A stretch of 64,000 bases of DNA. Source: Chiridota heheva. Lineage: Eukaryota > Echinodermata > Holothuroidea > Apodida > Chiridotidae. Below are positions 9,364 to 62,997 of the stretch, one piece after another. The stretch's first letter is position 1; each line of letters begins with the position of its first letter. Made by a program: the position numbers and the translations under genes. Below the pieces are notes generated by a model that was not told the DNA's origin, did not search any database, and saw only the letters and a program-made list of their open reading frames with translations. The stretch is from contig JAIGNY010001253.1 in assembly GCA_020152595.1 (NCBI GenBank), positions 631,001-695,000 of the forward strand. Direction: 5' to 3'.

Positions 9364-9721
9364 CTAAGGTGAATGATGTAATCTTATCAATTATTAAAGA
9401 ATCTTTTGTGTAATCTTATGGCTTCCATGCAGTATCCCCGGCTACAGTAGCATTAAAGTCGCATGGTCCAGCATTGTACAAATCTTAATAAAAGAATGAT
9501 GCATATTCATATTGGAAGAACTTATTATGTATGTCCAAACTATGGCATATCCCTGGCGGCTGGGCAGCAAAGTTGCAAGGCCGCCAGCTGTACTAAGCTA
9601 GCTTAACTATAAAATGATGAATATTTTTTTATGTATCATAATAGGGTAAAAAAACACAACAATTACAACCTGAAACTATTTAAGTATGCCTCTCTATCAT
9701 TTCTGATTCTAAACAGGTTTT

Positions 9722-15675: not shown

Positions 15676-18600
15676 GTATCCTTTGTTTTTTGAGGAAGCA
15701 AATAGTTTATTTGGATAAATTCTGATAAATTTTAAGGATGGGCACTAGAAGTATATAATTCATGATTCATCCCTATTGTTTTAGATCCCTAGCTTTTATT
15801 TTAAAAAGGGACAGGGTGCTAGATTTGTTGAGGGGCACATAAATGGGTGTAAGCACTGCAACTTTTCAGCATGGGGTCCAGGGGCCCTTAAGGCTTAAGC
15901 CTCTTGTGAAGCTTTGGGATAATTAGCTCTAATCATACAGTACCTCAGAATGAAACTTTTCTGACTGATAATGCCATTTATGAGCCAAACAGGACAATTC
16001 TTACTATGCTATTATTTTGTGCTCTGTATACAGTACATGTAAGATATTCCATTTATGAGGTTAACTAAGATCATTAAGTTTTTAAAGATTCTTTTTAATT
16101 ATTATTATTTTTTAAAACATTTGGTTATGATGAGAGCAGGGGACCAAAAGGGGCTGGGCCGCCCCTCTGAAACAGTAAAGCTTGGGCACTGTTAGTATCT
16201 ATATTATTTCTGGATACTAATGTTGTTTTTGATATTAGCAAGAACAGGTGTTTAAAGGAATAATGTTTTTTGTTTGTAACTAGTAGATTTGAAATGATTT
16301 TGCCTCTACCCATCACGATCCTTAAACCTATAGTGTGTCATTGTTGGAATTAGACTCAGAGGTGCGAGAATACACAGCTTTTAGGGAAATGCATACAGTA
16401 GAAGGTTCATGTAGAGCACTTTGATTTGTAACTGCAATGGTTTCCTTGTCTTCACTGATTAATCAGTTATTGGCTTTGTTTGGTTAGCTCTCAGAAAACC
16501 TTGACCTATTGTTGTTGGTTTCAGAAATTGCATTAGTTTTTATGCAAAAACCGACCTTTTGTTATATTTTTAGATGCAGATATTGCGAAGTTGCGAGCTG
16601 AAAACCAGGCATTATCTGAAGAGTTATCTCAGTGCCAGGTAAGGTTGTGTAACGTATGATTGATTGATGCTGTTTGATGAGGAATGTAATTTGTTGGTGT
16701 TTCCTAGATATCAAGAAGAAACCTAATTAATACATCTAATGCTTGTAAATACTCTCACTCATCCGTAATCAAGCTGGTCATTAGGACACCATTGATGACT
16801 TTCTGACAAGCTCTGGTTATGGTTCTCTGTGCTCTCTGGGATGTTGCAAATGCTCAAACCCGGTCCACTCTTTGATGTTGTCCTCCCACCTTTTTCTTTG
16901 GCAGCCTCTCTTTCTGCTTCCTGGCAAGGTACCTTGCAGGATTGTCTTTGTCAGGGCAGCAGATCTAGAGGCATGACCAAGCCATCTTAGCTTCCATTTT
17001 TTTAAACACTTGACAGAAAGTCTTCTAAAGGGCCAATGGCTAGTTGAATTCTGCTACGGAGTTCATCGTTGGGGACATGGTCCTTGTTTGAGATATTTAG
17101 GATAGATTCGCATTCGTAAATATATTAAATACATGTTAAAGCATAAAAACCATTGATTGATATTTTTTTCAAATTGATTGCATTTTCTGTGAATATTGTG
17201 GAAGGGAAGGAGATAATACTGTATGAATTATATTAAAAAAATAGTTTAGTTTTATGTATTTTCTTCCAAAGGCTGACAAGGATTTTGTATGGTCGCTATG
17301 GAAGAGACTTCAGGTGGCCAACCCCGATGTCTCCCAAGCTATCAGCTTAGTACTACAGAGGTAGGCAATTATGTAATGAATGTTCATACTTACCAATCAT
17401 AAAAACATGTGATGTCTGTAGAATGAGGTCTTAAAGGAACATTAGACCGACAAGTGAGGGCACTTATGTTTGCGAATTTCACCTGATCTATTGTCCACAA
17501 TAGAACAATACACTTCATGCCCTTATAGCCCACAGACAACATAAGGGCAAAGGTTACTTGAATATTTATATTAACCAGAAAATTGCTATACCATTGCATG
17601 CCAGATTAGCATTTTTTTTTTTTGGGGGTCCCCTAGAAATACACCCTCACTTTTTGGTCTAGTGCTCTTTAAATACTAAGCCTGGAATATCCAAAATATA
17701 TCCAGGCAATCAAAGAAAAACAATTGTTTGAATATTCATAATTTAACCCTTATTCTACCAGCATTTTTGTGAAAATGTGCTCGGGAGGCGCAGTCATATT
17801 TTTTATTTTTTATTTAACCCCATTTGCATATTATTTGCATATTATATGAACTGACACTTTCATACATAGTATGCTCAATCAGGGACTGTGATAGCTAGGA
17901 TGAGACTTCTTATGGAGCCTATGGGACGTCATGTGGAACATAGGGTGGGATGCCATGTGGGACATGGGGTGGGATACCATGTGGGAAATATGGTGGAATG
18001 CCATGTGGGACATGGTATGGGATGTCATGTGGGGCATGGGATGGGATTCCATGTGGGACATGGGATTCCATGTGGGACATGGGATTTCATGTGGGACATG
18101 GGATTCCATGTGGGACATGGGATTCTATGTGGGACATGGGATTTCATGTGGGACATGGGATTCCATGTGGGACATGGGATTTCATGTGGGATGTGGGATT
18201 CCATGTGGGACATGAGATTTCATGTGGGACATGGAATTTCATGTGGGACATGGGATGCCATGTGGGACATGGGATTTCATGCAGGACATGGGATGCCATG
18301 TGGGACATGGGATGCCATGTGGGACATGGGATGCCATGTGGGACATGGGATGCCATGTGGGACATGGAATGCCATGTGGGACATGGGATTCCATATGGGA
18401 CATGGGATGCCATGTGGGACTAAGTTTGAGAAGATATTTTTATAATTGGCTGGGTCATATGATATGGGTGTAAATTAGCATGGGCATAAGAACCATGATA
18501 GTGTTTACCGTTCTAGTTTGAAAATGCACTCGGGAGGCGGAGTCAAAGATAGGGAATCCAAAACAGCGATAATATCAGGGCATGGTAGTTTAGAAAATAA

Positions 18601-27600: not shown

Positions 27601-30600
27601 ATAGAAGACAAACAATTGCAAGAAAGTGAGTGTGTGACATCACTCATCGTCTAAAGTAGACTTTCTGTGCCAGTCGTTTTCAAGTAAACTTTATTTTTCA
27701 ACTTTGATTTCTTCTGAAGGGAAGAAAATATCAATCTAGTCTCTTCACATTTCTTTATTTTCTTTTTTTCATACAAAATGGACATGTCTGACCATTGCAG
27801 GACATGTCTGACCATTGCAGGACATGTCTGACCATTGCAGGACATGTCTGACCATTGCAGGACATGTCTGACCATTGCAGGACATGTCTGACCATTGCAG
27901 GACATGTCTGACCATTGCAGGACATGTCTGACCATTGCAGGACATGTCTGACCATTGCAGGACATGTCTGACCATTGCAGGACATGTCTGACCATTGCAG
28001 GACATGTCTGACCATTGCAGGACATGTCTGACCATTGCAGGACATGTCTGACCATTGCAGGACATGTCTAACCATTGCAGGACATATATAATCATTGCAG
28101 AACATGTCTGACCATTACAGGACGTGTCTGACCATTGCAGGACATGTCTGACCATTGCAGGACATTTTCAACTTTAATTTCTTCTGAAGGAAAGAAGATA
28201 TTAATCTAGTCTCTTCACATTTCTTTATTTTCTTTTTTTCATACAAAATGGACATGTCTGACCATTGCAGGACATGTCTGACCATTGCAGGACATGTCTG
28301 ACCATTGCAGGACATGTCTGACCATTGCAGGACATGTCTGACCATTGCAGGACATGTCTAACCATTGCAGGACATATATAATCATTGCAGAACATGTCTG
28401 ACCATTACAGGACATGTCTGACCATTGCAGGACATGTCTGACCATTGCAGGACATGTCTGACCATTGCAGGAAATGTCTAACCATTGCAGGACATGTCTG
28501 ACCATTGCAGGACATGTCTGACCATTGCAGGACATGTCTGACTATTGCAAGACATGTCTGACCATTGCAGAACATATCTAACCATTGCAGGACATGTCTG
28601 ACCATTACAGGACATGTCTGACCATTACAGGACATGTCTGGCCATTACAGGACATGTCTGACCATTACAGGACGTCTGACCATTACAGGACATGTCTGAC
28701 CATTGCAGCAATGATTTATTGATCAATTTACTTTGAAACGTTTTGTATATCTTTCCTTTACATAGAACTGAAACGACAGCTGGATAGTTATTCTGTATCT
28801 GTACAAGAGAGCAGGGAGGAGCTAGATAGAAGTGACAGACAAAACGCTCACCTTTTAGCTAAAATCAAGGTATGCATGACAGATTTTATCACATAGTACA
28901 AATGACTGAAAACTAAAACCATCCGCGCATTAGGCTCATAGGGCCGGTGCTTATTCCCTGATTTTCATGGCGCAAATGGATGAGAGTACATAACTCCCCC
29001 TGGACAGGACACCAGTCCATCGAAGATTAACTCCCAAGCAGTGCTGATACTTATTTTACAGCTGAGTGGACTTGAGCAAGTAGAGTAAGATGCCTTGCTC
29101 AAGGACACAATGCAACGCTCATGATGGAATCGAAACTGGTACCTTTTGCATACGAGTATGACCCCTTAACCACTGCACCAATCAAATGACTGAAATCAGA
29201 CTAGAAATGACATAGCAATTTCTCATTCCTGAAAGGTTTGTATTTTAATAAAATAATTTGTTGAGTTTTGTGATTTACAACCATTAGATATGTCAAGGAA
29301 GTTTTTTTGTAAACAGCTGGAATCTTGTAAAGTAACTGATTTAAAAAAATTGAATAATGATATATGCTTAGTAACTGGGATTATTATGTACCATTTAAAA
29401 AATTGAATAATGATATATGGTTAGTAACTGGGATTAACATGTACCATCTAAAAAATTGAATAATTGATATATGAATAGTAACTGGGATTAACAAGTACCA
29501 TCTACAGAAATTGAATAATATGTATGGTTAGTAACTGGGATTAACTAGTACCATCTAAAAAATTGAATAATGATATATGAATAGTAACTGGGATTAACAA
29601 GTACCATTAAAAATTTGAATAATGATATGTGGTTAGTAACTGGGATTGACAAGTACCATTGAAAAAATTGATTAATGATATATGGTTAGTAACTGGGATT
29701 ATTAAGTAACATTTAGAAAATTGAATAATGATATATGAATAATAACAAGTACTATCTAAAAACATATAATGATATATGGTTAGTGACTGGGATTAACAAG
29801 TACCATCTAATAAATTGAATAATGATATATGGTTAGTAACTGATTAATATGTACTATCTAAAAACATTGAATAATGATATATGTTTAGTGACTGGGATGA
29901 ACAAGTACCATTTAAAAATTGAATAATGATATATGCTTAGTAACTGGGATTAACAAGTACCATCTAAACAAAATGAATAATGATATATGGTTAGTAAGTG
30001 GGATTTAGTACCATCTAAAAAACTTGAATAATGATATATGGTTAGTAACTGGGATTAACAAGTACCATCTAAAAACTTGAATAATGATATATGGTTAGTA
30101 ACTGGGATTACCATGTACCATCTAAAAAATTGAATAATGATATATGGTTAGTAAAAGGAAAATTGAAATAATTTGAAATTAATACAATAATAATTGCCAT
30201 TAAAGCTTTATGGACAGGTACAAAAATTTTACCACCAAAAAGAGCATTAAATTTGAATTTTGAAAACAGCATGCATAGTTTCAAGTTATGAATAATCAAA
30301 AATTTGAAAATTGTTTAAAATTTTGAAAACATTGTGGTATATGAACAGAAAAACACCTGAAAGTCGCTTTTGTTTTTTAATATTTCTTCCCTTAAAAATT
30401 CAGACCTTGAAAATGTTCAAAATCTGTTCTCCAGCTTGAGGTTGGTTGGGGTATTGTAAAGATCATGTCCTCTTCATCAAAATTATCTTCCCTTTTTTCA
30501 AAGAGAAATTGCGGAGGGCTAAAAAACAATGGATTTACATAAGAAAATATTGACTGTCCCATTCATTTATCACATAAGTAACACAAAAATTTGTATATTT

Positions 30601-33600: not shown

Positions 33601-36600
33601 TTCATATTTTGCAACAGCATAATTGCATTAATAGACCAAACTGATAATCGCAGTGTAAGTTTGTATAGCGATGTATCACTCAGTATTGCAAGTAGTAGTG
33701 CATATGTACAGCATATAGTGCACACTGAGTGAGATGTTTATATCACTATAGGAGTGAGGTGTGGTAGCCCAGTGGTAATGTCTCTGACTCATACTTCAAG
33801 GGGAGGCTACTGGGTTAGATTCCCAGGTACCTGTGTTGTGTTCTTTAGCAAGATACTTCATTTCCGATTGCAGTCCATTTATATGGGAAATTAGTACCAG
33901 CTTGATGGGAAGTTAGCCTGCAATGGATTGGTATTCCGTCAAGTATAGCTCACTGCTTGTACTAAGGGAACAGGGGATACCCACCAGCCCAAATGACTAA
34001 TATGTATCCTTTCAATATCAATTGTCTACTGCTCACTGCTTGTGCTAAGGTAACAGGGGATACTCACCAGCCCAAATGACCAATATGTATCCTTTCAATA
34101 TCAATTGTCTACTGCTCACTGCTTGTGCTAAGGTAACAGGGGATACCCACCGGCCCAAATGACCAATATGTATCCTTTCAATATCAATTGTCCACTGCTC
34201 ACTGCTTGTACTAAGGTAACAGGGGATACTCACCAGCCCAAATGACCAATATGTATCCTTTCAATATCAATTGTCTACTGCTCACTGCTTGTGCTAAGGT
34301 AACAGGGGATACCCACCGGCCCAAATGACTAATATGTATCCTTTCAACATCAATTGTCTACTGCTCACTGCTTGTACTAAGGTAACAGGGGATACCCACC
34401 GGCCCAAATGACCAATATGTATCCTTTCAATATCAATTGTCTACTGCTCACTGCTTGTACTAAGGTAACAGGGGATACTCACCAGCCCAAATGACCAATA
34501 TGTATCCTTTCAATATCAATTGTCTATTGCTCACTGCTTGTACTAAGGTAACAGGGGATACTCACCAGCCCAAATGACTAATATGTATCCTTTCAATATC
34601 AATTGTCTACTGCTCACTGCTTGTGCTAAGGTAACAGGGGATACCCACCGGCCCAAATGACCAATATGTATCCTTTCAATATCAATTGTCTACTGCTCAC
34701 TGCTTGTGCTAAGGTAACAGGGGATACCCACCGGCCCAAATGACCAATATGTATCCTTTCAATATCAATTGTCCACTGCTCACTGCTTGTACTAAGGTAA
34801 CAGGGGATACCCACCAGCCCAAATGACTAATATGTATCCTTTCAACATCAATTGTCTACTGCTCACTGCTTGTACTAAGGTAACAGGGGATACCCACCGG
34901 CCCAAATGACCAATATGTATCCTTTCAATATCAATTGTCTACTGCTCACTGCTTGTACTAAGGTAACAGGGGATACCCACCAGCCCAAATGACCAATATG
35001 TATCCTTTCAATATCAATTGTCTACTGCTCACTGCTTGTGCTAAGGTAACAGGGGATACCCACCGGCCTAAATGACCAATATGTATCCTTTCAATATCAA
35101 TTGTCTACTGCTCACTGCTTGTACTAAGGTAACAGGGGATACCCACCGGCCCAAATGACCAATATGTATCCTTTCAACATCAATTGTCTACTGCTCACTG
35201 CTTGTACTAAGGTAACAGGGGATACCCACCAGCCCAAATGACCAATATGTATCCTTTCAATATCAATTGTCTACTGCTCACTGCTTGTGCTAAGGTAACA
35301 GGGGATACCCACCGGCCTAAATGACTAATATGTATCCTTTCAATATCAATTGTCTACTGCTCACTGCTTGTGCTAAGGTAATAGGGGATACCCACCGGCC
35401 CAAATGACCAATATGTATCCTTTCAACATCAATTGTCTACTGCTCACTGCTTGTACTAAGGTAACAGATACCCACCAGCCCAAATGGATACCACTTGTGC
35501 ATGCCCAAATGACCAATATGTATCCTTTCAAATGACCTGTTTGTGCTAAGGTAACAGGGGATACCCAATATGTATCCTTTCAATATCAATTGTCTACTGC
35601 TCACTGCTTGTACTAAGGGAACAGGGGATACCCACCGCCCAAATGACCAATATGTATCCTTTCAATATCAATTGTCTACTGCTCACTGCTTGTGCTAAGG
35701 TAACAGGGGATACCCACCGCCCAAATGACCAATATGTATCCTTTCAATATCAACATCAATTGCCCAAATCTACTGCTCACTGCTTGTGCTATATGGATCT
35801 TTTCAATATCAATTGTCTACTGCTCACTGCTTGTGCTAACAGGATACCCACCGCCTAAATGACCAATATGTATCCTTTCAATATCAATTGTCCACTGCTC
35901 ACTGCTTGTACTAAGGAACAGGGGATACCCACCAGCTCAAACTGGTAACTAAGGGAACAGGGGATACCCACCGCCCAAATGACCAATATGTATCCTTTCA
36001 ATATCAATTGTCCACTGCTCACTGCTTGTACTAAGGTAACAGGGATACCCACCGCCCAAATGACCAATATGTATCCTTTCAATATCAATTGTCCACTGCT
36101 CACTGCTTGTGCTAAGGTAACAGGGATACCCACCGCCCAAATGACCAATATGTATCCTTTCAATATCAATTGTCTACTGCTCACTGCTTGTGCTAAGGTA
36201 ACAGGGGATACTCACCAGCCCAAATGACCAATATGTATCCAATTGTCTTTCAATATCAATTGTCTACTGCTCACTGCTTGTACTAAGGTAACAGGGGATA
36301 CCCACCAGCCCAAATGACCAATATGTATCCTTTCAATATCAATTGTCTACTGCTCACTGCTTGTACTAAGGTAACAGGGATACCCACCAGCCCAAATGAC
36401 CAATATGTATCCTTTCAACATCAATTGTCTACTGCTCACTGCTTGTACTAAGGTAACAGGGATACCCACCAGCCCAAATGACCAATATGTATCCTTTCAA
36501 TATCAATTGTCTACTGCTCACTGCTTGTGCTAAGGTAACAGGGGCCCAAATGACCAATATGTATCCTTTCAATATCAATTGTCTACTGCTCACTGCTTGT

Positions 36601-39600
36601 GCTAAGGTAAAATACCCACCAGCCAAAATGACCAAATGTATCCTTTCAACATCAATTGTCTATGTATCCTTTCAATATCAATTGTCTACTGCTCACTGCT
36701 TGTACTAAAGGTAACAGGGATACCCACCAGCCCAAAATGACCAATATGTATCCTTTCAATATCAATTGTCTACTGCTCACTGCTTGTGCTAAGGTAACAG
36801 GGGATACCCACCAGCCCAAATGACCAATATGTATCCTTTCAATATCAATTGTCTACTGCTCACTGCTTGTGCTAAGGTAACAGGGGATACCCACCGGCCC
36901 AAATGACTAATATGTATCCTTTCAACATCAATTGTCTACTGCTCACTGCTTGTGCTAAGGTAACAGGGATACCCACCGCCCAAATGACCAATATGTATCC
37001 TTTCAATATCAATTGTCTACTGCTCACTGCTTGTACTAAGGTAACAGGGGATACCCACCGGCCCAAATGACCAATATGTATCCTTTCAATATCAATTGTC
37101 TACTGCTCACTGCTTGTGCTAAGGTAACAGGGGATACCCACTCGCCCAAATGACCAATATGTATCCTTTCAATATCAATTGTCCACTGCTCACTGTTTGT
37201 GCTAATGACCAATATGTAACACTGCTCACTGGGATACCCACGGCCCAAATGACCAATATGTATCCTTTCAATATCAATTGTCCACTGCTCACTGCTTGTA
37301 CTAAGGTAACAGGGGATACCCACCGGCCCAAATGACCAATATGTATCCTTTCAATATCAATTGTCTACTGCTCACTGCTTGTACTAAGGTAACAGGGGAT
37401 ACCCACCAGCCCAAATGACCAATATGTATCCTTTCAATATCAATTGTCTACTGCTCACTGCTTGTACTAAGGTAACAGGGGATACCCATCGGCCCAAATG
37501 ACCAATATGTATCCTTTCAATATCAATTGTCTACTGCTCACTGCTTGTACTAAGGTAATAACAGGGGATACCCACCAGCCCAAATGACCAATATGTATCC
37601 TTTCAATATCAATTGTCTACTGCTCACTGCTTGTGCTAGATAACAGGATACCCACCCGCCCAAATGACCAATATGTATCCTTTCAATATCAATTGTCTAC
37701 TGCTCACTGCTTGTACTAAGGTAACAGGGATACCCACCGCCCAAATGACCAATATGTATCCTTTCAATATCAATTGTCTACTGCTCACTGCTTGTACTAA
37801 GATAACAGGGGATACCCACCAGCCCAAATGACCAATATGTATCCTTTCAATATCAATTGTCTACTGCTCACTGCTTGTACTAAGGTAACAGGGGATACCC
37901 ACCAGCCTAAATGACCAATATGTATCCTTTCAATATCAATTGTCTACTGCTCACTGCTTGTACTAGATAACAGGGGATACCCACCGGCCCAAATGACCAA
38001 TATGTATCCTTTCAATATCAATTGTCTACTGCTCACTGCTTGTACTAAGGTAACAGGGGATACCCACCAGCCCAAATGACCAATATGTATCCTTTCAATA
38101 TCAATTGTCTACTGCTCACTGCTTGTACTAGATAACAGGGGATACCCACCGGCCCAAATGACCAATATGTATCCTTTCAATATCAATTGTCTACTGCTCA
38201 CTGCTTGTACTAAGGTAACAGGGGATACCCACCGACCCAAATGACTAATACATATCCTTTCAATATCAATTGTCTACTGCTCACTGCTTGCACTAAGGTA
38301 ACAGGATGGATACCCACCAGCCCAAATGACCAATATGCATCCTTTCAATATCAATTGTCTACTGCTCACTGCTTGTACTAAGGTAACAGGGATACCCACC
38401 AGCCTAAATGACCAATATGTATCCTTTCAATATCAATTGTCTACTGCTCACTGCTTGTGCTAAGGTAACAGGGGATACCCACCGGCCCAAATGACTAATA
38501 CATATCCTTTCAATATCAATTGTCTACTGCTCACTGCTTGTGCTAAGGTAACAGGGGATACCCACCGGCCCAAATGACCAATATGTATCCTTTCAGCATC
38601 AATTGTCTACTGCTCACTGCTTGTACTAAGGTAACAGGGGATACCCACCAGCCCAAATGACCAATATGCATCCTTTCAATATCAATTGTCTACTGCTCAC
38701 TGCTTGTACTAAGGTAACAGGGGATACCCACCAGCCTAAATGACCAATATGTATCCTTTCAATATCAATTGTCTACTGCTCACTGCTTGTGCTAAGGTAA
38801 CAGGGGATACCCACCGGCCCAAATGACCAATATGTATCCTTTCAATATCAATTGTCTACTGCTCACTGCTTGTGCTAAGGTAACAGGGGATACCCACCAG
38901 CCTAAATGACCAATATGTATCCTTTCAACATCAATTGTCTACTGCTCACTGCTTGTACTAAGGTAACAGGGGATACCCACCAGCCCAAATGACCAATATG
39001 TATCCTTTCAATATCAATTGTCCACTGCTCACTGCTTGTGCTAAGGTAACAGGGGATACCCACCAGCCTAAATGACCAATATGTATCCTTTCAACATCAA
39101 TTGTCTACTGCTCACTGCTTGTACTAAGGTAACAGGGATACTCACCAGCCCAAATGACTAATGTGTCCCCTTTCAATATCAATTGTTTACTGCTCACTGC
39201 TTGCACTAAGGTAACAGGGGATACCCACCAGCCCAAATGACTAATACATATCCTTTCAATATCAATTGTCTACTGCTCACTGCTTGTACTAGATAACAGG
39301 GGATACCCACCAGCCCAAATGACTAATACATATCCTTTCAATATCAATTGTCTACTGCTCACTGCTTGTATTTAGGTAACAGGGGATACCCACCAGCCCA
39401 AATGACTAATACATATCCTTTCAATATCAATTGTCTACTGCTCACTGCTTGTACTAGATAACAGGGGATACCCACCAGCCCAAATGACTAATACATATCC
39501 TTTCAATATCAATTGTCTCTCATTATGTTTCTCGTTTGAATATATTCTCTTTATCATAATTTTCCTTCTAGTACTAAAGACTCAAGAAAATGCCCATGTA

Positions 39601-42600
39601 ATTGAAGCTTCAAATTATTTAGCGGTGAGTATGATTTGAATATTGTTTCATTTCATGCCTGTTTGTTTAATGTCACATGATGTTTTTGATATAAAAATTG
39701 TTGTATCATTTAGATTATTTTGTGACTTCATGAGGTGAGGAGAGGCATGGCGTGTTTGCAGTAAAGTGTCAGTCAGTTCTGTCACTTTCATGTCAGTTGA
39801 AGGGAGAAAAAGGTTTAGTCACTACCAGCATGATGTTTGTTAAATTGCCGCGTGGTAGGGTAATGGGTAATCAAGGGCTGATGATTGAATGGACATCAGT
39901 AACAATTTTCATATTGGTTAATCCTTACTCTACCAGCACTTTTTTGAAAATGTGCTCGGGAGGAGGAGTCAAAGATGGGGCACCCAAAACGGTGATAATA
40001 TTGCCGCGTGGTAGAGTAAGGGTTAAAAGAGTATTTCAAAGGAGACATAAAGTCTGATACAATCATTATTTAATATTTCATATTTTATATGATAGAGGAT
40101 ACAAATCTTAACGGACTACCACAAACAGCAAGTCAAAATCTTATTTCTATCTCAAGTTATTCATGTTTGAAGTTGACACATGGAGGCTGCCATTTTGTTC
40201 AATTCTGTATTGAAATATTGTGCATGATGACATAATTTTCCCAATAGGGACATAGGGAATTTAATGTATTTCTTTATAAATGTGATTGAAGTTTCTATTC
40301 CAAAATGATGTGACACAAAATTTTAACAGAATGTTTTCTTAATTTCATGTATACACAACAAATTCCTTGACCCTTACAAAGAAAAAACATTTCTCATAAC
40401 CTAGAAATCTTGATTATAAAGAAATACAAAGCATTTCCAACATCCTGTTGGGCTGATGACATCATAATCTGCATGTTTTGAAATCAAAATGGCAGCTCCC
40501 ATAGCACTATTTAGTAATAGAATTAAAGTTTTTAATAATTATACAAATTGTGTTTGATTGCTTAAGGGGGTATGAAACTTGGTCAGAAAAATTTGTTATT
40601 TTTAATTCTATCATATGAAAAAGGATTATGTCAGACTTTATGTCTCCTTAAACATCTGAGCAGATCAGTTTTTGATTTTTGAAGAAAAAAAAAACTTTTT
40701 TAGTTTTTGAGTTATGAAAAATGTTTTTAATTCACACAAAATTTGTGGTGTATGACGGGTGGAAAGCTAAAAATCTGTGATGTAATTCCTTAAATTTCTT
40801 TCCTAAATCTTAGTTCCTACAAATATTGAGAAAGTATATTTCTGTTAGAATTTTATTGGGGCAAAGAATCAAAAACTTTTTGTCAGAATTTGCTGCACTG
40901 CTTCAAAGAATTATGGTAGACATTTAAAAAACAAATAATTTCCAAGAAAATAAATACCAAGGTCACCCTGCAAGTACATTTCAACTATGCATAAAATATG
41001 CAAGTTGATGTCCGAGTTTTAAAATGCTGTAAAATGGTCAATGTTTAATCAATGTTGGTGAAATTTGTTGCTACTTTTATGGTGTCTAATAGATCTTAAA
41101 CATTTATATAACTTAGCTGGAAGACAGGTATCTTGGGACTGAGAGCAGTAGCTTACTGATAACAATGCAGAACTTTTGTGTTTCTCTTATTGAAGAAGCA
41201 TATTGAAAATTTCTTTGAAAATGTTCTCCTGTCAATTTGGCCGTTACTGTCTGTAGTACTTGACTGCGTTATGGTTGTTCTGAATGCTTGCGGAAGTTTT
41301 TCAAAAAAGAATGAAAAATCTTAATTACAGTGTGTTTTTTCGCGATTAAAGTTTAATCCATTCGAGCCATTAGAACCATATGGTTAGTGCTTATACCCGG
41401 TTTCCGTGGCACAAGCGGATGAGAGCATAGAGCATATGTTACTCCTCGAACGGGATGCCAGTCTATAAGGGTCTTTCAGCTGACGTCACGAGGTCACATG
41501 ACTTTGTTTACATTGCCATTTTGTCTGGAAAAACCACTGTCGTCTGCTGTACACTGCCATTGGTTGCACTAATAGATGTGTGCGGAGGAATAAAAGACAT
41601 TTTCTTGATTTCCATCTGATCGACGTTCGAAGTGGGTTTCTTCTGTACGATGTGACAGCTTGAACCTGTGGTTCACACTAGGATTTGCAGCGAGCATTTT
41701 ATATCAAGTATGTAGGCTTTGTCTGAGTATAACGAACAATAAGCTGGCGTTGACGTTAAAGTTACTCTTCGTACACCCTGTAAAAATATAAACTAATATG
41801 AAGTAAAATCGGAAACGAACAAAAAATTGCAATTAGTAAAATTCACTGAACTGGTACTGGTAGGTTAGCATGTAGTATGTTTGTTGTACGTGTGATGTGA
41901 CTGACCTGTGTGAAAATGCGTGAAATGCAACGCTGCTGCCCTGCAAAATGGAGTCCAGTTGAGTTAGAGTCACGTGATGAAATCCCTCTATTACAGGTAC
42001 TCCTCAGCAGTGCTGGTACTTATTTTACAGCTGAGTGGACTGGAGCAAGTAGAATAAAGTGCCTTGCTCAAGGACACAATGCATTGCTCACAACAGGAAT
42101 TGAACCAGGTACCTCTTGCATAAAATATTTTCAATGTACTAGCATGTTTATTTGAATTAATGTAAATTGTTTTCCTTTTGTGACCTTAGATGAATAAAGA
42201 GCTGCAAGCCAGGTTTGAAGCAGTTCAGGAATCAGAACAAAACCTCCAAAGGATTCTCTCAGATCCTCACTCCCAGAGATCAAAGAAGAACTTGACCGAA
42301 GCAGCTGTCCAGACAACAGAGTTGACGGACAAAAACATTGAGTCTCCCTGGACTGAAAGGTGTGGATTAACAATTCTAATTGAATGTATTTTTGTTTAGA
42401 TGAGGTATTTAAAATTTGATTGGTATTAGGCCATAGTTAATTAGGTATCATCATTATGTTTAAAAATGTATTATCATTCTGATAAGGTATAGATAATAAT
42501 GTACAGTATTTATGTAGCATAATATTACAAATAAGTACCACAATATATGCAGATACAAAAAAGCTTTAAAATATAGTTTAAAATGTTACAGTGATTCTGG

Positions 42601-60600: not shown

Positions 60601-62997
60601 TGCACCTGCAGTGAAATTTGTTTACTATCAATGTCAGATTATCACCATAGAAAGTGAGGTGAAGTGTGTGCATTGTAGAAAGAAGAAATCCCTGGTGTGA
60701 TTGCTGGATTGTGGTTTCTGTTGTGAGCAATACTAGACCCTACCCCCCCCCCACCCCCATCTCCCCCTCTCTCCCCCTTATCCCCTGACAGTTTTGTTGG
60801 GGCTTAAGACTGAAAAGGTATTGCGAGGTTTAAACTTAATGTTATGTTGTTTATTCTTTTTAACCTATGCCTTCAGACATAGTAGATTCTCAACCCATAT
60901 TTAGAAAAGCCAACTGCAGATAATTTTAGTGATTATTTTTAGCTGTTAGGTTCAACTTGAAGATAATGTCACTAGCTACTCCTGTATTGCATTTATTTAT
61001 TCAAAGGACCTCAAAGTTTGCATAACCATATTGCTGCAACTTCAGGTAATTTTCTTGGAATTGAAAATTGCTCCATCTGAAATTCAAATGTCTTTTGTAT
61101 TCACATTTACCCCACAGCTCACTGTAGGAAGTTTGTGTTGGGGAAGAAACAAAACTCTGTAAAAACAAGTATAACACTTTTCTCCAATACTGTTACAATG
61201 GATCACATTTAGATTAATAAATTTCACATTTCATTCTTTCTGTTATTTATGTTTTTCTCTTTAGTGTTATCAAGAGCTGATGTCATTGACGCAAGTGTGG
61301 GCGACATTGACATCAGGTCAGAGACAAGCACAAATGCTTCAGAGAGTGAGGGCAGTGTTACTCATTACTCGGCATCTGCATGTAAGTCACGTTAGGCTCT
61401 CTTATTTCCATTCAATCATGCTTTATGTCTGATTTGTGTGACTGAATCTTTGAAGTAGATTTTTCCTTATTCTTCTTTTCAATTTCAAAATCATTCATTT
61501 ATTTTTATCCAATGTTGGTAACAAGTTACTTAGTTAAATACATGCTAAAGCCATGAAGGCCCATCAGGCTGGTGCTTATCCCTGGTTTCCTTGGCATACG
61601 TGGATGAGAGTACATGACTCAACCTGGACAGGATGCCAGTCCATCCATACTAGAGCCATGAAGGCCCATCAGGCTGGGGCTTATCCCAGTTTCCTTGGCA
61701 TAAGTTGATGAGAGCACATGACTTCCCCTGGACAGGATGCCAGTCCATCCATACTAGAGCCATGAAGGCCCATCAGGCTGGTGCTTATCCCTGGTTTCCT
61801 TGGCGTAAGTGGATGAGAGCACATGACTCAACCTGGACAGGATGCCAGTCCATCCATACTAGAGCCATGAAGGCCCATCCGGCTGGTGCTTATCCCTGGT
61901 TTCCTTGGTGTAAGCGGATGAGAGCACATGACTTAACCTGGACAGGGCGCCAGTCCATCCATACTAGAGCCATGAAGGCCCATCAGGCTGGTGCTTATCC
62001 CTGGTTTCCTTGGCATACGTGGATAAGAGTACATGACTCAACCTGGACAGGATGCCAGTCCATCCATACTAGAGCCATGAAGGCCCATCAGGCTGGTGCT
62101 TATGCCCTGGTTTCCTTGGTGTAGGCAGATGAGAGCACATGACTCCCCCTGGACAGGACGCCAGTCCATCCATACTAGAGCCATGAAGGCCCATCAGGCT
62201 GGTGCTTATCCCTGGTTTCCTTGGCATAAGCGGATGAGAGCACATGACTTAACCTGGACAGGATGCCAGTCCATCCATACTTAGAGCATGAAGGCCCATC
62301 AGGCTGGTGCATATCCCTGGTTTCCTTGGCATAAGTGGATGAGAGCGCATGACTCAACTTGGACAGGATGCCAGTCCATCCATACTAGAGCCATGAAGGC
62401 CCATCAGGCTGGTGCTTATGCCCTGGTTTCCTTGGCATAAGTGGATGAAAGCACATGACTCACCCTGGACAGGACACCAGTCCGTCCATACTAGAGCCAT
62501 GAAGGCCCATCAGGCTGGTGCATATCCCTGGTTTCCTTGGTGTAAGCGGATGCGAGCACATGACTTGGCAGGACCTCAGTCCATTGCAGGTTAAATCCCC
62601 AGCAGTTCTGGTACTCATTTACTGCTGAATAGAATTGAGCAAGTAGAGTAAAGTGTCTTGCTCAAGGACAAAATGCAGTGCTTGCAGGAGTCAAACCTGG
62701 TACATTTTGCTGATGAGCATGGCTCCTATTCTACTGAGCCACTGCACCTCTTATGTTGGTAAGAAGCTTCAACTGCATTTTTGGACGATATGAATTTGTC
62801 CATGATGAAATATTGCAGTTTTTAAACCTGTTTTCAGATCTTTTATTTTAAGTTTTGAGTTTCGTTTTTCAGTTTCAGTTTCCAGTTTCGAGCAAGGAGC
62901 CTCAGATCTGCTTGGCAAAAGACAATCATCCCCCAGCCTCAAATCAAGAAACCATGTAAGAAGCCTTCAGAAACGAGTTTCAACATTGCAACAGCAG
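15615..62997 (+). CDS. CNTLN: Centlein, N-terminal 896 residues (26 exons, 3' end outside window)
   Basis: Centlein is a long coiled-coil centrosomal protein. In vertebrates it sits at the proximal ends of centrioles, bridges C-Nap1 and CEP68 in the centrosome linker, and is used in the sperm head-tail junction. Exons: 15615-15675, 16574-16638, 17272-17360, 20438-20522, 22180-22223, 23566-23713, 26447-26528, 28766-28869, 32252-32308, 32570-32667, 32809-32918, 39572-39624, 42190-42359, 43594-43654, 44539-44715, 46405-46523, 48455-48577, 50229-50329, 51368-51474, 52231-52319, 53713-53878, 55249-55340, 56573-56699, 59703-59825, 61265-61381, 62879-62997. All introns are GT-AG and phases join throughout, except for one missing base in exon 24. 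Identification rests on colinear blocks I know from vertebrate centlein: DFVWSLWKRLQ (residues about 45-55), DRKVLEIL, SLSPQRSR, EDSDAVWNEL, MNLEEELDRLKV and SIEKMSHIF. The rest is mostly charged heptad coiled coil. Vertebrate centlein is about 1400 residues, so roughly the last third is missing here. The N-terminus is shorter than in mammals. Confidence 0.93.
16574..16638 (+). CDS. CNTLN: Centlein exon 2
   Basis: Residues 21-42, between a ttttag acceptor and a gtaagg donor. The segment is an amphipathic helix (AKLRAENQALSEELSQCQ) that leads directly into the conserved tryptophan motif of exon 3. In vertebrate centlein a similar leucine-rich helix occupies the same place. Confidence 0.88.
16755..17095 (-). 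mobile_element. RTE-clade LINE 3' end
   Basis: The - strand reads KLRWLGHASRSAALTKTILQ, GTLPGSRKRGCQRKRWEDN and IKEWTGFEHLQ, the C-terminal signature of RTE retrotransposons. 5' truncated, lying in centlein intron 2. Confidence 0.8.
17272..17360 (+). CDS. CNTLN: Centlein exon 3, conserved Trp motif
   Basis: Residues 43-72, with the diagnostic DKDFVWSLWKRLQVANPD followed by VSQAISLVLQR. This is the best-conserved block of centlein and the strongest single piece of evidence for the gene's identity. Acceptor ccaaag, donor gtaggc, ending in phase 2. Confidence 0.93.
17743..18590. mobile_element. MITE interrupted by minisatellite element, copy 2
   Basis: The outer sequence (17743-17796 and 18520-about 18590) matches the 109-bp MITE at 39918. 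The inner part (about 17800-18515) is the 19/24-bp minisatellite family, here as about 20 very regular 19-bp units (18040-18420) with the family flanks gatagctaggatgagact and gggtcatatgatatgggtgt. A 26-bp stretch is present on both sides. Confidence 0.65.
18600..19680. other. Intron 3 spacer, nothing seen
   Basis: AT-rich intronic sequence without recognised exon, tandem array or element ends. Confidence 0.4.
19683..20197 (-). mobile_element. Short THAP-containing DNA element, copy 1
   Basis: From 20065 the - strand reads MPEPCCTIGCTNR, then KTFFRFLSDPDQRSKWVLAV: the CxxxC start, the aromatic-R-F core and the invariant Trp of a THAP zinc finger. The closing ICSEH motif follows after a frame break near 19910. 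The flanks match the copies at 30.7 and 41.5 kb. No transposase follows. Confidence 0.7.
20438..20522 (+). CDS. CNTLN: Centlein exon 4
   Basis: Residues 72-100. The segment KTEMKDRKVLEILHIKDDRI matches the basic helix that follows the Trp motif in vertebrate centlein. Acceptor atatcag, donor gtaaga, ending in phase 0. Confidence 0.92.
20806..20952. repeat. 31-bp tandem repeat
   Basis: About 5 copies of GAAATTGTTATGGAAATAATTTTT with alternating attgtt/atgtta variants, giving a 62-bp higher period. Centlein intron 4. Confidence 0.8.
22180..22223 (+). CDS. CNTLN: Centlein exon 5 (44 bp)
   Basis: Residues 101-115, LEREHEEESVKLKE, a short coiled-coil exon between a ctttaaag acceptor and a gtaaat donor. 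It is assigned by phase continuity (phase 0 in, phase 2 out) and heptad composition. Confidence 0.8.
22887..23118. repeat. 115-bp tandem duplication
   Basis: Two copies of a segment beginning catgtgagact(c/t)cagctat and ending gatgagaaaattgat. Intron 5, upstream of exon 6. Confidence 0.8.
23566..23713 (+). CDS. CNTLN: Centlein exon 6 with 7-residue internal repeats
   Basis: Residues 115-164. The exon contains four near-identical heptads of the form (V/T)(A/S)EK(E/D)(S/K)L, for example ESLTSEKESLTSEKDKL, a coding tandem repeat with the 21-bp period expected for a coiled coil. Acceptor attcag, donor gtaaga. Confidence 0.88.
23959..24951. repeat. 32-bp satellite, about 31 copies
   Basis: Unit CCATGGGCTAGTATT followed by (G/A)TGATTGAAAAGATAAA. 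Very homogeneous apart from a recurrent g/a variant. Starts about 250 bp after exon 6, in intron 6. Confidence 0.95.
25079..25656. mobile_element. TTAA-flanked MITE, family A copy 1
   Basis: Starts AGAAGACATAAAATCT and ends GACTTTATGTCTCCT, with TTAA at 25075-25078 and 25657-25660. The interior matches 40040-40648. Non-coding. Confidence 0.75.
25806..26030. repeat. Dispersed repeat shared with 59876-60200
   Basis: Both regions contain ctctaataagcg and acattttttgactgat; element class unknown. Confidence 0.5.
26447..26528 (+). CDS. CNTLN: Centlein exon 7
   Basis: Residues 165-192, FEESTRDLKYQVTEKHQECE and onward, charged coiled coil. Acceptor tgtcag, donor gtgagt, ending in phase 1. Confidence 0.87.
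27780..28163. repeat. 20-bp satellite block 1 (19 copies)
   Basis: Unit GACATGTCTGACCATTGCAG. The first 15 copies are essentially identical, followed by a diverged group (gacatatata, aacatgtctg, gacgtgtctg). Each regular unit contains GGACATGTCT. Intron 7. Confidence 0.97.
28164..28249. repeat. 86-bp spacer duplicated from 27695-27779
   Basis: Non-repetitive stretch beginning ttttcaactttaatttctt and ending catacaaaatg, nearly identical to the DNA preceding block 1. A whole spacer-plus-array segment was therefore duplicated. Confidence 0.85.
28250..28708. repeat. 20-bp satellite block 2 (about 23 copies)
   Basis: Same unit as block 1, including a second copy of its gacatatata/aacatgtctg variant pair. 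More diverged toward exon 8 (cattacag variants, one short unit). Confidence 0.95.
28766..28869 (+). CDS. CNTLN: Centlein exon 8
   Basis: Residues 192-226, with QLDSYSVSVQESREELDRSD and ending HLLAKIK. Acceptor ttacatag, donor gtatgc. The acceptor lies only about 57 bp downstream of a large 20-bp tandem array. Confidence 0.88.
28921..29187 (-). mobile_element. tRNA-derived SINE (tail region founds the satellites)
   Basis: The - strand starts gtgcagtggttaaggggtca (A-box region), has a B-box-like GTTTCGATTCC, then ccttgagcaaggcat, and a 3' part with atggactggtgtcctgtcc and cagggaataagcaccggcc. The same family occurs at 33755, 41375 and 62580. Confidence 0.75.
29335..30155. repeat. About 52-bp diverged tandem repeat, roughly 16 copies
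   Basis: Unit TTGAATAATGATATATGG, then TTAGTAACTGGGATTAACAA, then GTACCATCTAAAAA, with indels. Intron 8. Confidence 0.9.
30700..31258 (+). mobile_element. Short THAP-containing DNA element, copy 2
   Basis: From 30812: PNSCCAIGCTNRRVPGNKK, SRFPSDP, a stop, then RSKWVSAVRR, and in another frame RICSEHF. These are the landmarks of a C2CH THAP domain in broken frames. A downstream non-coding part (gaactggtactggtaggtta) and an agagtcacgtgatga end are shared with copies 1 and 3. Confidence 0.7.
32252..32308 (+). CDS. CNTLN: Centlein exon 9 (57 bp)
   Basis: Residues 227-245, ELEVDLARIGKTAERAANE, a phase 0-0 exon that could be skipped without a frameshift. Acceptor cataatag, donor gtcagt. Confidence 0.82.
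32570..32667 (+). CDS. CNTLN: Centlein exon 10
   Basis: Residues 246-278, HEFSDIELEETKKQRDQWKE and onward. Acceptor ttctcag, donor gtcagc, ending in phase 2. Highly charged coiled coil. Confidence 0.86.
32809..32918 (+). CDS. CNTLN: Centlein exon 11
   Basis: Residues 278-315, KKFVEMKKNYQKTVEQTTEQ then LQVITQLQSLQSETQT. The QLQ..ETQ part aligns with the segment before the VLRNQED block of vertebrate centlein. Acceptor gttttag, donor gtaggt. It precedes the longest intron, 6.65 kb. Confidence 0.87.
32922..33047. repeat. 67-bp tandem duplication at the exon 11 donor
   Basis: Two copies of gtatcacctgactacagtga through gtgttgcaa(t/a)ctaa directly after the splice donor. Confidence 0.8.
33151..33300. 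repeat. Microsatellites
   Basis: A (CATAA)n run at about 33151-33171 and an (AATC)n run at about 33257-33300. Confidence 0.85.
33755..33990 (+). mobile_element. tRNA-derived SINE running into the 83-bp array
   Basis: A-box-like TAGCCCAGTGG and B-box-like GGTTAGATTCC, then the SINE body and tail (atggattggtattccgtcaa, caggggatacccaccagccc). The last part is the first unit of the following satellite. Confidence 0.7.
33945..39519. repeat. 83-bp satellite, about 67 copies (5.6 kb)
   Basis: Unit in pieces: CCCAAATGACCAATATGTAT, CCTTTCAATATCAATTGTCT, ACTGCTCACTGCTTGTACTA, AGGTAACAGGGGATACCCAC, CGG. Highly homogeneous, with a scrambled stretch near 35460-36260 and 37190-37240 containing truncated units. 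It fills most of centlein intron 11 and stops about 50 bp before exon 12. Confidence 0.97.
39572..39624 (+). CDS. CNTLN: Centlein exon 12 (53 bp)
   Basis: Residues 315-332, ILKTQENAHVIEASNYLA, which resembles the VLRNQEDVHTAES block of vertebrate centlein. Acceptor ccttctag lies about 50 bp after the end of the 83-bp satellite array; donor gtgagt. Confidence 0.85.
39918..40026. mobile_element. 109-bp MITE
   Basis: Terminal inverted repeats TTAATCCTTACTCTACCA and TGGTAGAGTAAGGGTTAA (17/18 matched). The interior has gaaaatgtgctcgggagg, as in the interrupted copy at 17743. Confidence 0.8.
40040..40648. mobile_element. TTAA-type MITE, family A copy 2
   Basis: Perfect 18-bp terminal inverted repeat AGGAGACATAAAGTCTGA, interior colinear with 25079-25656. 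The flanking tetranucleotides (TCAA, TAAA) look like decayed TTAA. Confidence 0.8.
41375..42125 (-). mobile_element. SINE interrupted by THAP element
   Basis: The two ends (41375-41465 and 41990-42125) together make one SINE of the 28921 family: gatgccagtctat on the left, caggtactcctcagcagtgc and a tRNA-like head on the right. Confidence 0.65.
41466..41994 (+). mobile_element. Short THAP-containing DNA element, copy 3, nested in a SINE
   Basis: AIGCTNRCVRRNKRHF, a Trp region and RICSEHFISSM mark a broken THAP domain. The ends are aagggtctttcagctgacgt and agagtcacgtgatgaaatcc. TCTAT occurs on both sides and may be the target duplication. Confidence 0.65.
42190..42359 (+). CDS. CNTLN: Centlein exon 13
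   Basis: Residues 333-389. It begins MNKELQARFEAVQESEQNLQ and ends with a less helical TEAAVQTTELTDKNIESPWT. Acceptor gaccttag, donor gtgtgg, ending in phase 2. Confidence 0.88.
42590..42775. repeat. Diverged tandem repeat, about 20 bp
   Basis: Repeated (g)ttaaaaagttatcatcatt(t)(c)tg units after exon 13. Confidence 0.65.
43594..43654 (+). CDS. CNTLN: Centlein exon 14 (61 bp)
   Basis: Residues 389-409, FSKQSNIVIDSDVAMKHDIS. Low-complexity linker between coiled coils, assigned by phase and splice sites (ttcacag, gtatgt). Confidence 0.8.
43655..44400. other. Intron 14, nothing seen
   Basis: AT-rich, no repeat family recognised. Confidence 0.35.
44405..44525. repeat. AT-rich tandem repeat at exon 15 acceptor
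   Basis: About six copies of ATATTTAATTTGAATATTC immediately before the acceptor of exon 15. Confidence 0.8.
44539..44715 (+). CDS. CNTLN: Centlein exon 15, SLSP segment
   Basis: Residues 410-468. KRRRTKSLSPQRSRALF matches the Arg-rich SRSLSPKSSF motif of vertebrate centlein, a likely phosphorylated linker. An acidic stretch GDDEDEP and a basic helix RRKLKDLKKLLRLK follow. Acceptor ttaatag, donor gttggt. Confidence 0.9.
45079..45641. mobile_element. TTAA-flanked MITE, family B
   Basis: About 47-bp imperfect inverted ends beginning AGGAATATTCCCAT, with exact TTAA at 45075-45078 and 45642-45645. Related ends appear near 21970, 53935 and 55905. Confidence 0.85.
45960..46315 (+). mobile_element. 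Two tandem LINE 3' tails
   Basis: Both end in gaccctcgttgtcgtggtgc / gttaagcccttatcaaacaa, the 3' end of the element at 46690. Confidence 0.65.
46405..46523 (+). CDS. CNTLN: Centlein exon 16
   Basis: Residues 469-508. LQSAYNVVKEQIQTYEQHSG corresponds to the NYRAVKEQLKQWEEGSG block of vertebrate centlein. Acceptor catttaag, donor gtgaga, ending in phase 2. Confidence 0.91.
46690..47107 (+). mobile_element. I/Nimb-like LINE 3' end
   Basis: Reads HHVLLACPLYNLSRASLAPH, then IAEFFQKNPPNKIISFLHHA and LYNHI stop. The HxxxxCPxY motif is the C-terminal mark of this group. The element ends with a polypyrimidine 3' UTR and a CAAA-rich tail. Confidence 0.75.
47645..47800. repeat. Tandem repeat with GGGAATTTCC-like units
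   Basis: About eight units of 17-22 bp (gaaatgtagggaatttctt). GGGAATTTCC occurs exactly at 47657 and 47751, with one-base variants between. Intron 16. Confidence 0.8.
48455..48577 (+). CDS. CNTLN: Centlein exon 17, DSDAVWNEL block
   Basis: Residues 508-549. The phase from exon 16 requires the acceptor aatgtag at 48451-48454 rather than the closer ttgcag. This gives KKKKVTYRADPRLLQ then KEDSDAVWNELTYYKQ, matching RADPQQLRQEDSDAVWNEL of vertebrates. Donor gtcagt, ending in phase 2. Confidence 0.92.
48580..50228. other. Intron 17, no feature seen
   Basis: No exon or recognised repeat. 49060-49630 has a weak symmetry (tgcccctatggtgg and ttatggtgggtgt) that could be element ends, but I could not define it. 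Confidence 0.35.
50229..50329 (+). CDS. CNTLN: Centlein exon 18
   Basis: Residues 549-583, MNLEEELDRLKVQTASDACT then IEDLALCLQEDKK. This closely matches MNLEEELDELKV of vertebrate centlein, in the same position after the DSDAVWNEL block. Acceptor ttttcag, donor gtaact. Confidence 0.92.
50713..51195. mobile_element. MITE with about 40-bp inverted ends
   Basis: The left ATGAGAGAGGACTTCAATAG matches the reverse complement of the right end (ATGAAAGAGGACTTTAAAAG). Fragments of the right end occur near 6665-6735 and 13346-13400. The right end stretches to about 170 bp before exon 19. Confidence 0.7.
51368..51474 (+). CDS. CNTLN: Centlein exon 19
   Basis: Residues 583-618, a Lys/Glu-rich helix (MQFQIKKLKEMKKKEEKERD). 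Acceptor attatgcag, donor gtattt, ending in phase 0. Confidence 0.86.
51895..52150 (-). mobile_element. CR1-like LINE remnant
   Basis: The - strand reads LQNNAARIVTKS, then ILTDLCLLPVSYKNQLKISE and LLYKSLNKYGPGLF, the C-terminal RT region of CR1/L2-like LINEs. Different family from 11690. Confidence 0.75.
52231..52319 (+). CDS. CNTLN: Centlein exon 20
   Basis: Residues 619-648, VLHSRQAVEEMEIKVNDLKS and onward. A long pyrimidine tract and ttgtag form the acceptor; donor gtcaga, ending in phase 2. Confidence 0.87.
52735..53435. mobile_element. Possible hAT-like non-autonomous element
   Basis: The ends carry AGTGCTGTCGTGATATGG and, inverted, AGTGATATCATAACATATCG with further tatcg/gcgatat motifs. 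No transposase was seen. Confidence 0.4.
52828..52924. repeat. 17-bp tandem repeat
   Basis: Six copies of AAGAAAACTTACTCACC inside the possible hAT-like element. Confidence 0.9.
53713..53878 (+). CDS. CNTLN: Centlein exon 21
   Basis: Residues 648-703. A coiled coil (SRVEMLQSEVVSLKRKLHHK) ends in a basic/serine stretch KVARRSRSQTSLKE. Acceptor cttcctag, donor gtgagc. Confidence 0.88.
54060..54632. repeat. About 165-bp diverged tandem repeat
   Basis: Two full and one partial copy, each with gtacattcatgtgac, aggacatgggtactg, caaatgagcatgattgg and ttatttgcataacaatgaaa. Confidence 0.75.
55249..55340 (+). CDS. CNTLN: Centlein exon 22
   Basis: Residues 704-734. SIEKMSHIFPNLSYKDWEE matches the SIKVMSNVFENLSKDGWED block of vertebrate centlein, a conserved non-coiled-coil patch. 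Acceptor tttttcag, donor gtgagt, ending in phase 2. Confidence 0.92.
55915..56535 (+). mobile_element. I/Nimb-like LINE 3' end, second family
   Basis: Reads NRREDVFVTCIRLGHSSFTH, PLCPTCNTDLSMKHIFVTC and PLYQNSKF, the same CxxC...HxxxxCPxY C-terminal domain, then a CAAAC-rich tail. Confidence 0.75.
56573..56699 (+). CDS. CNTLN: Centlein exon 23, Arg-rich segment
   Basis: Residues 734-776. SGDDTGRISTGFVTSTP is followed by a very basic RRRPREGARARRRHLR, a disordered positively charged linker. Acceptor gtctacag, donor gtaagt. Confidence 0.87.
56850..57155. mobile_element. Minisatellite-bearing element, short copy
   Basis: The left part has gcataatgcgaacctatgta and atggcgattacgtccttccg. There are only about five 19/24-bp units, then the family right flank. 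Intron 23. Confidence 0.65.
57325..59210. mobile_element. Minisatellite-bearing element, long copy
   Basis: The left part gcataatgcgaagctatgta equals the start of the preceding element. The array (about 57885-59140) is a diverged 19/24-bp repeat on both sides of a gatagctaggatgagact segment. The right flank ends ggtatttaccgttctagttc. The interior 57420-57560 also has a repeated cagaaaaagttaaagtttct motif. Confidence 0.65.
59618..59680. repeat. 21-bp tandem repeat, 3 copies
   Basis: Units of aaaagtaatctgctactgt about 25 bp upstream of the exon 24 acceptor. Confidence 0.75.
59703..59825 (+). CDS. CNTLN: Centlein exon 24 with apparent 1-bp deletion
   Basis: The frame entering from exon 23 reads LSSVQKHLMRMARAYEQNRQ and continues to SLFIK, then meets TGA at 59787-59789. 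One base further on, the frame VNMSTQTDDDNSP stays open to CCAG|gtgagg, and this is the phase exon 25 needs. A single base is therefore missing near 59776-59784. The alternative donor ttg|gtgaac would put exon 25 in a frame that stops at once. This may be an assembly error, a null allele or a real mutation. Confidence 0.75.
60200..61264. other. Intron 24 spacer
   Basis: No exon seen. A C-rich run lies at 60738-60785. The remainder is unremarkable. Confidence 0.35.
61265..61381 (+). CDS. CNTLN: Centlein exon 25
   Basis: Residues 818-857, counting one base restored in exon 24. An acidic/serine-rich linker: LSRADVIDASVGDIDIRSET then NASESEGSVTHYSASA. Acceptor ctctttag, donor gtaagt, ending in phase 1. 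Confidence 0.84.
61548..62580. repeat. 105-bp satellite, about 10 copies, SINE-derived
   Basis: Unit in pieces: AGCCATGAAGGCCCATCAGG, CTGGTGCTTATCCCTGGTTT, CCTTGGCATAAGTGGATGAG, AGCACATGACTCAACCTGGA, CAGGATGCCAGTCCATCCAT, ACTAG. Reverse-complemented, it is the 3' part of the SINE at 28921. Intron 25. Confidence 0.92.
62581..62752 (-). mobile_element. SINE head adjoining the 105-bp array
   Basis: The - strand reads gtgcagtggctcagtagaat (A-box region), GGTTTGACTCC (B-box-like) and ccttgagcaagacac, completing the SINE whose tail is amplified to the left. Confidence 0.75.
62879..62997 (+). CDS. CNTLN: Centlein exon 26 (last exon in window)
   Basis: Residues 857-896. SSFEQGASDLLGKRQ and NHVRSLQKRVSTLQQQ, the latter like the LRERIISLQQQ start of the C-terminal coiled coil in vertebrates. 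Three nested cag acceptors occur here; only the last (62876-62878) gives an open frame. Donor gtaata. No further exon is visible up to 64000. Confidence 0.85.

Follow-up and report, generated by a model that had tools for sequence, protein, structure and literature searches.

The 64,000-nt window analysed here (Chiridota heheva, contig JAIGNY010001253.1, positions 631,001 to 695,000 of the forward strand) contains two tandem arrays, with units of 83 and 105 bp, together with copies of a tRNA-derived SINE (Table 1). Tandem Repeats Finder located both arrays where a preliminary description of this DNA had put them (the second at 61541-62566, with 9.8 copies). As had also been described, each is associated with a SINE: the 83-bp array starts inside the copy that begins at 33756 on the forward strand, while the 105-bp array lies inside the copy that begins at 62751 on the reverse strand. 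BLAST comparison within the window revealed that these two sequences and an unamplified copy at 28.9 kb are related to one another and to both repeat units. Target site duplications (TSDs), as expected of a SINE, flank the 28909 and 62751 copies; none was found around the 33756 copy with its 83-bp array or around the 41348-42122 copy. ARAGORN reported zero tRNA genes in the window, which is expected for diverged SINE heads.

Table 1. SINE copies, tandem arrays and target site duplications in the window (positions count from its first nucleotide)
Feature	Position	Strand	Remarks
TSD pair of the 28909 SINE copy	28899-28911 and 29183-29195		13/13 nt
Single-tail SINE copy, unamplified	28909..29180	-	BLAST match 28915-29195; sequence comparison within the window
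SINE head and body (S2-like, tRNA-derived) leading into the 83-bp array	33756..33947	+	88% identity to the S2 consensus over 176 columns
83-bp tandem array	33948..39518	+	67.0 copies (Tandem Repeats Finder); private to the locus
Further SINE copy in two pieces (41348-41466 and 41999-42122)	41348..42122	-	~530 bp between the pieces
TSD, 3' side of the SINE with 105-bp array	61512..61525	-	13/14 nt match to 62753-62766
SINE 3' terminus after the last 105-bp unit, followed by the TSD	61526..61540	-	sequence read
105-bp tail array, 10 units, each the SINE 3' domain (~171 to 274)	61541..62584	-	
SINE head and body carrying the 105-bp array	62585..62751	-	SINE start at 62751
TSD, 5' side of the SINE with 105-bp array	62753..62766	-	

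The SINE family was characterized in the 1.10-Gb assembly (3744 contigs). A search with the copy at 28.9 kb yielded 7086 first-look candidates, the best 40 of which were scored, the top matches being 85-87% identical. A 284-nt consensus (S1) was built from 20 genomic copies (L009-L028, 10 kb each), and a second subfamily consensus (S2) from 20 relatives of the 33756 copy (L029-L048). The true consensuses resulted in 185 matches and the reversed controls in none. Dispersed copies of one short consensus, here at 20 loci, are what is expected of a SINE, and A-box-like and B-box-like sequences can be read by eye in S1. In the anatomy of such elements the tail is the part that would derive from a partner LINE.

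Alignment to the genome-built consensus bears out the proposal that the SINE 3' domain is the source of both units. The 105-bp unit matches S1 from 171 to 274, end to end, with a score of 134 (shuffle maximum 37), and the 83-bp unit matches positions 203-255 with a score of 39 (shuffle maximum 32); in neither case was the true score reached in 2000 shuffles. Against S1/S2 the 83-bp unit scored 58, and 300 shuffles reached 34 at most. Compared directly, the two units scored 37 (shuffle maximum 35, 0/2000 shuffles). On these alignments the direct resemblance between the units is real but weak, the link being the SINE, and the proposed homology stands.

The 83-bp unit consists of approximately 57 nt of SINE tail (SINE ~203-262) and a further 26 nt or so which are absent from every subfamily consensus. 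Its full units are 96.0% identical on average (63 units), against 88% identity to the consensus for the SINE part outside the array. At the 5' entry, internal and 3' exit junctions the unit overruns the SINE homology, and the array exits in phase into the 3' sequence. A unit extending past the SINE end, combined with an in-phase exit, fits a duplication that took place after insertion and spanned the SINE end and the neighbouring DNA. An 83-bp dimer used to query the assembly gave a single first-look candidate, which was its own array, and a query made of the SINE plus two 83-bp units matched array units at the window locus only. The 83-bp array is an ordinary private minisatellite, a one-off local expansion. 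An old SINE copy would already have been in place, a segment covering the end of its tail and the adjoining DNA would have been duplicated in situ, and unequal exchange or slippage would then have brought the array to 67 copies. Since this unit is private and contains non-SINE sequence, a single process behind both arrays was rejected, and with it the earlier view of the two as instances of one process.

Tandem arrays are abundant in this genome. A random 50 kb (round coordinates, five contigs) contained 28 arrays of period ≥ 10, amounting to 12.6% of the bases, and zero SINE matches at 1e-4. Across all samples, the units of 121 of 165 arrays resembled those of no other sampled array. Nine of 137 array units matched the SINE beyond 300 shuffles each, where 0.46 would be expected. 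The SINE-internal arrays originate in heads (L011, L027, L047, L048), in the middle (L037) and in tails (L026, L027, L035, L046); those of L026 and L047, and the 15-bp repeat of L036, comprise only about two copies. Ten SINE-internal arrays were counted in ~12 kb (46 SINE copies from two picked samples, that of S2 being chosen by likeness to an array-bearing copy and thus possibly biased), as compared with 7.8 predicted from the background (P 0.26). Six of 12 lie in the 3' third of the element when the two window arrays are included (P 0.18). Arrays born within the SINE are real, but these counts do not show the SINE to be more array-prone than other DNA here. It had been suggested that the 3' domain is prone to tandem expansion; with arrays also beginning in heads and middles and with a density not above background, this suggestion finds no support, and a general array hotspot in the 3' domain is unsupported by both the density and the position counts.

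The 105-bp unit is widely dispersed. A dimer query (3552 first-look candidates, 40 scored, 183 matches, two neighbouring matches on C3235 being merged) found the dimer in the same register at at least 39 places, the window included. At 22 or more of these 39, a query composed of head, body and first units placed the SINE head/body directly upstream of the array and on the same side, and reading of the sequences added C1190 (L064) and C3725 (L069). Fourteen loci, selected for short arrays, were fetched with their flanks. They typically comprise head and body, two to six units and, usually, the SINE 3' terminus, which is missing from L055 and L063. The expectation that a SINE borders each array thus holds only in part, as four of the 14 (L056, L058, L062 and L063) consist of tail units devoid of a recognisable head or body.

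Allowing for substitutions, the main junction between units can be made out by eye in 13 of the 14 loci that were fetched. Its exact 22-nt sequence occurs 127 times in the genome (reversed control 0), and the 100 matches listed all fall within known arrays except for C3473:216017, where a partial second unit is present. Exact matches to the SINE 3' terminus number 42 (control 0), and of the roughly 40 places involved two are known multi-tailed loci. A gapped pattern, in which the full 3' terminus is followed by a unit start, gave seven matches (control 0): five define a second junction type, one is L066, and one (C1153) resembles a chance match. In the second type the full 3' terminus is joined to SINE ~169, at five places; these are 28-nt matches only and may represent one SINE abutting a truncated one. 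In the third type, found only at C3473 (L066), the next unit comes after the whole 3' terminus. In all three types the internal breakpoint falls no more than about 5 nt from SINE position 171. The longest direct repeat of the SINE was considered as the site of a crossing-over and rejected: S1 carries GATGGA at 171 and 269, but the main junction, as read, retains only a 3-nt GAT overlap, so that the longest repeat did not decide the junction. At one SINE position, then, tails seem to have multiplied on more than one occasion. In agreement with the earlier expectation of many SINE-to-array junctions at the same point of the element, the 105-bp array is a member of a family of tail arrays that lie inside SINE copies, are dispersed over the genome and share one recurrent breakpoint.

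The TSD around the window SINE and its 105-bp array has a score that none of 300 shuffles reached, yet 9 of 1000 random pairs of window segments did. When 15 loci were tested against 210 mismatched flank pairs, only the window copy, L058 (12/13 nt around a tail-only dimer) and L059 (11/12 nt around a SINE with three units) stood out. A candidate TSD at L057 was discarded, since it is the 3' terminus of the SINE itself. Tail-only copies that break off within a unit might have proved that multimers are retroposed, but this argument was also set aside; L062 and L070 look degenerate upstream, which leaves one fair case, C312 (L068).

The ages of the units were assessed from their divergence. Identity averages 0.894 within loci (45 pairs) and 0.854 between loci (735 pairs), the maximum in 2000 label shuffles being 0.876; the window array was excluded from this comparison, and L063 had only one full unit. 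Relative to the distance from the consensus, unit-to-unit distance is 0.68 within loci and 0.87 between them. Late duplication in situ predicts much closer units within a locus, and the doubling is consequently about as old as the insertion; these unit ages led us to reject, for the 105-bp family, independent expansion in situ of each element's own tail. Lineages specific to unit position are absent (first-first 0.175, last-last 0.164, first-last 0.169). Unit 3 of L054 and unit 2 of L055 are identical, including a 10-nt deletion, which requires a shared multi-tailed source or exchange rather than fresh multiplication in each. The nearest unit belonged to the same locus in 20 cases and to another in 21, with eight ties, a result unusable as proof because other loci contribute more units and young loci attract old ones. 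Among the 40 near relatives recovered when head, body and a single unit served as query, 33 are single-tailed, six have further units, and C3473:215764 carries the main junction.

We propose that one tRNA-headed SINE superfamily gave rise to arrays by two routes, in-situ expansion for the 83-bp unit and multiplication of the 3' domain inside the element for the 105-bp unit, and put the probability of this explanation as a whole at about 0.6. According to it the 83-bp array would be one among many minisatellites born locally in a genome rich in arrays, and would not reflect a property of the SINE. In the 105-bp route, the 3' domain of one SINE subfamily (from ~171 to near the 3' end) would have multiplied within the element, between body and 3' terminus. 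One junction is common to dozens of dispersed places, two further types share its internal breakpoint, a TSD surrounds a whole SINE with its array, and two-unit copies made of tail only exist. We infer that the first doublings arose during reverse transcription, the enzyme having stalled where body and tail meet and resumed at, or close to, the 3' end of the RNA. Some multi-tailed elements may later have been copied, or have swapped units with others, and unequal exchange could then have lengthened some arrays to tens of units. Against this route it must be said that the missing SINE 3' terminus at L055 and L063 is odd for target-primed reverse transcription, that TSDs are clear at only three of the 15 loci tested, and that the shared main junction could go back to a single event, passed down in a multi-tailed source lineage.

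The last objection can be developed into a full alternative, in which a single multi-tailed source SINE, born once at the main junction, was retroposed with a variable number of units; recurrence would then be unneeded save for rare accidents. The prevalence of the main junction at the fetched loci and in the exact search, the deleted unit common to L054 and L055, and the tail-only dimer of L058 with its TSD are all in keeping with a single source. It sits poorly with the further junction types that share the internal position and with the bodies of the multi-tailed copies, which do not cluster: a weakly resolved body tree does not unite them, and known multi-tailed places make up none of the 39 best matches to the L060 body and one of the 39 to the window-copy body, in lists swamped by young single-tail copies. 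It also leaves unaccounted for the fact that units are less diverged than bodies when the same loci are compared, and we think it unlikely. In the multi-tailed copies (10 of 15 loci kept) units differ by 0.136 and bodies by 0.172, the units less in 36 of 45 pairs, whereas single-tail copies show the opposite (tails 0.150 and bodies 0.084 in S1; 0.243 and 0.213 in S2), the contrast having a P of 5e-6. This hints at exchange between loci. Units might accordingly have been exchanged or seeded among dispersed SINE tails, by gene conversion or by re-insertion of excised circles, with the arrays evolving in concert and the bodies keeping their own age. The C693 locus is suggestive in the same direction, its full-length dimer matches being 90-96% identical to the window units and its body lying outside the 39 best body matches. 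The loci were, however, selected because their units, rather than their bodies, resemble those of the window, and between first units alone and bodies (11 of 15 loci, kept on body score) the difference in divergence is not significant (P 0.38), so that exchange as the whole explanation is somewhat improbable.

Two other schemes fare less well. Both arrays could be plain minisatellite births in situ, the SINE being merely the DNA present there; the share of the random sample occupied by arrays, the background-level density of SINE-internal arrays and their varied starting positions are all what such births would give. This fits the 83-bp array and fails for the 105-bp array, whose junction recurs at dozens of places and whose units are hardly younger than the insertions, and as an account of both it is very unlikely. 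Alternatively, a partner LINE with a tandem 3' end could have passed the tandem on to the SINE and to tail-only copies. The repeated block does coincide with the would-be LINE-derived tail, and tail-only copies exist (L056, L058); on the other hand, most of the near relatives, as well as the sampled S1 and S2 copies, are single-tailed, and we consider a LINE origin of the tandem more improbable still. The two-route explanation remains our preferred reading. It might be carried further, to a built-in multiplication point at the body/tail boundary of a SINE subfamily, where repeated restarts of reverse transcription would add tail units as wholes and, together with exchange of units, would produce a genome-wide network of concertedly evolving minisatellites; this we offer as a rather doubtful extension.

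The origin of a satellite is usually hard to read, the sequence that preceded amplification having been lost. Here the surviving single-tail SINE copies represent the state before, and breakpoint, unit, age and spread can be compared across loci. If tails were indeed multiplied at a fixed point in reverse transcription, satellite units would come directly from retroposition, which would then supply more than raw sequence. SVA elements are composite non-autonomous retroelements with an internal VNTR of variable length. They resemble the present family in holding a variable-length tandem array inside an inserted non-autonomous retroelement; in contrast to the SVA composite, it is the 3' domain of a tRNA-headed SINE that is repeated here, with one unit in most copies.

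Minisatellites arising inside SINE copies are described for human Alu elements and for a mouse B1-derived VNTR, and there too any region of the element may supply the repeats (PMC9659126). In the part of that account available to us these differ in being short simple units or single loci, and no dispersed family with a common internal junction is described (PMC9659126).

SINE-derived satellites (sSats) are already known from squamate reptiles, with a reported preference for subtelomeric regions (PMC10702118). The hallmark of an sSat is present here: the tandem unit shares homology with a portion of a SINE, and SINE sequence continues at an end of the array. One unit at many loci, which serves to define sSats, is seen for the 105-bp unit, and the dimer search of the whole assembly placed the 83-bp unit at one locus only. 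As far as the accessible portion of the squamate account goes, its arrays likewise have tandem units taken from part of a tRNA-derived SINE and usually a longer terminal unit continuing to one SINE end; the part of the SINE used varies by species, and one junction can dominate many loci, as here (PMC10702118). The same portion contains no mention that we found of target site, reverse transcription, microhomology or template (PMC10702118). The SINE family differs (PMC10702118), and the sea cucumber arrays are distinguished by TSDs which bracket a SINE with its array (window copy, L059) or a tail-only dimer (L058), and by three junction types at one internal breakpoint. The squamate sSats are the closest described relatives of the 105-bp family.

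Three arrays of the 105-bp family, the repeated 3' domain of the tRNA-headed SINE, are held by one contig of the assembly, C1251, and in the unit comparison the units nearest to those of the window were those of L056, a locus of tail units with no recognisable head or body. This suggests that the arrays spread locally.

In the sampled SINE copy at L027 each array is made from the nearest end of that same copy, with units of 15 bp (tail) and 47 bp (head); the SINE 3' terminus is still present beyond the tail array. At locus L011 the SINE sequence continues past an array located in its head, the period of which equals the spacing of two GCTC words in the consensus SINE head (21 nt).

The largest cluster of array units among the sampled loci and the window (13 arrays) is a dispersed TGGGATGCCATGTGGGACATAGGG-like satellite, present in both. 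The reverse-transcriptase fragment of the window is, by its look, a LINE remnant.

Locations of arrays and related features
Feature	Location	Remarks
105-bp arrays	contig C1251, about 310 kb; 547-551 kb; 692.5-693.6 kb	
Array-bearing SINE copy	L027:112-2627	array at each end
Array in SINE head	L011:5018-5326	period 21 nt
TGGGATGCCATGTGGGACATAGGG-like satellite	window 3162-3988, 17922-18420, 56938-57054, 58110-59148	unit 19-24 bp
TGGGATGCCATGTGGGACATAGGG-like satellite outside window	L010, L015, L016, L049	unit 19-24 bp
Reverse-transcriptase fragment	window 9613-10056	Pfam RVT_1, E 4.6e-11
Interrupted SINE copy	window 41348-42122	split by ~530 bp
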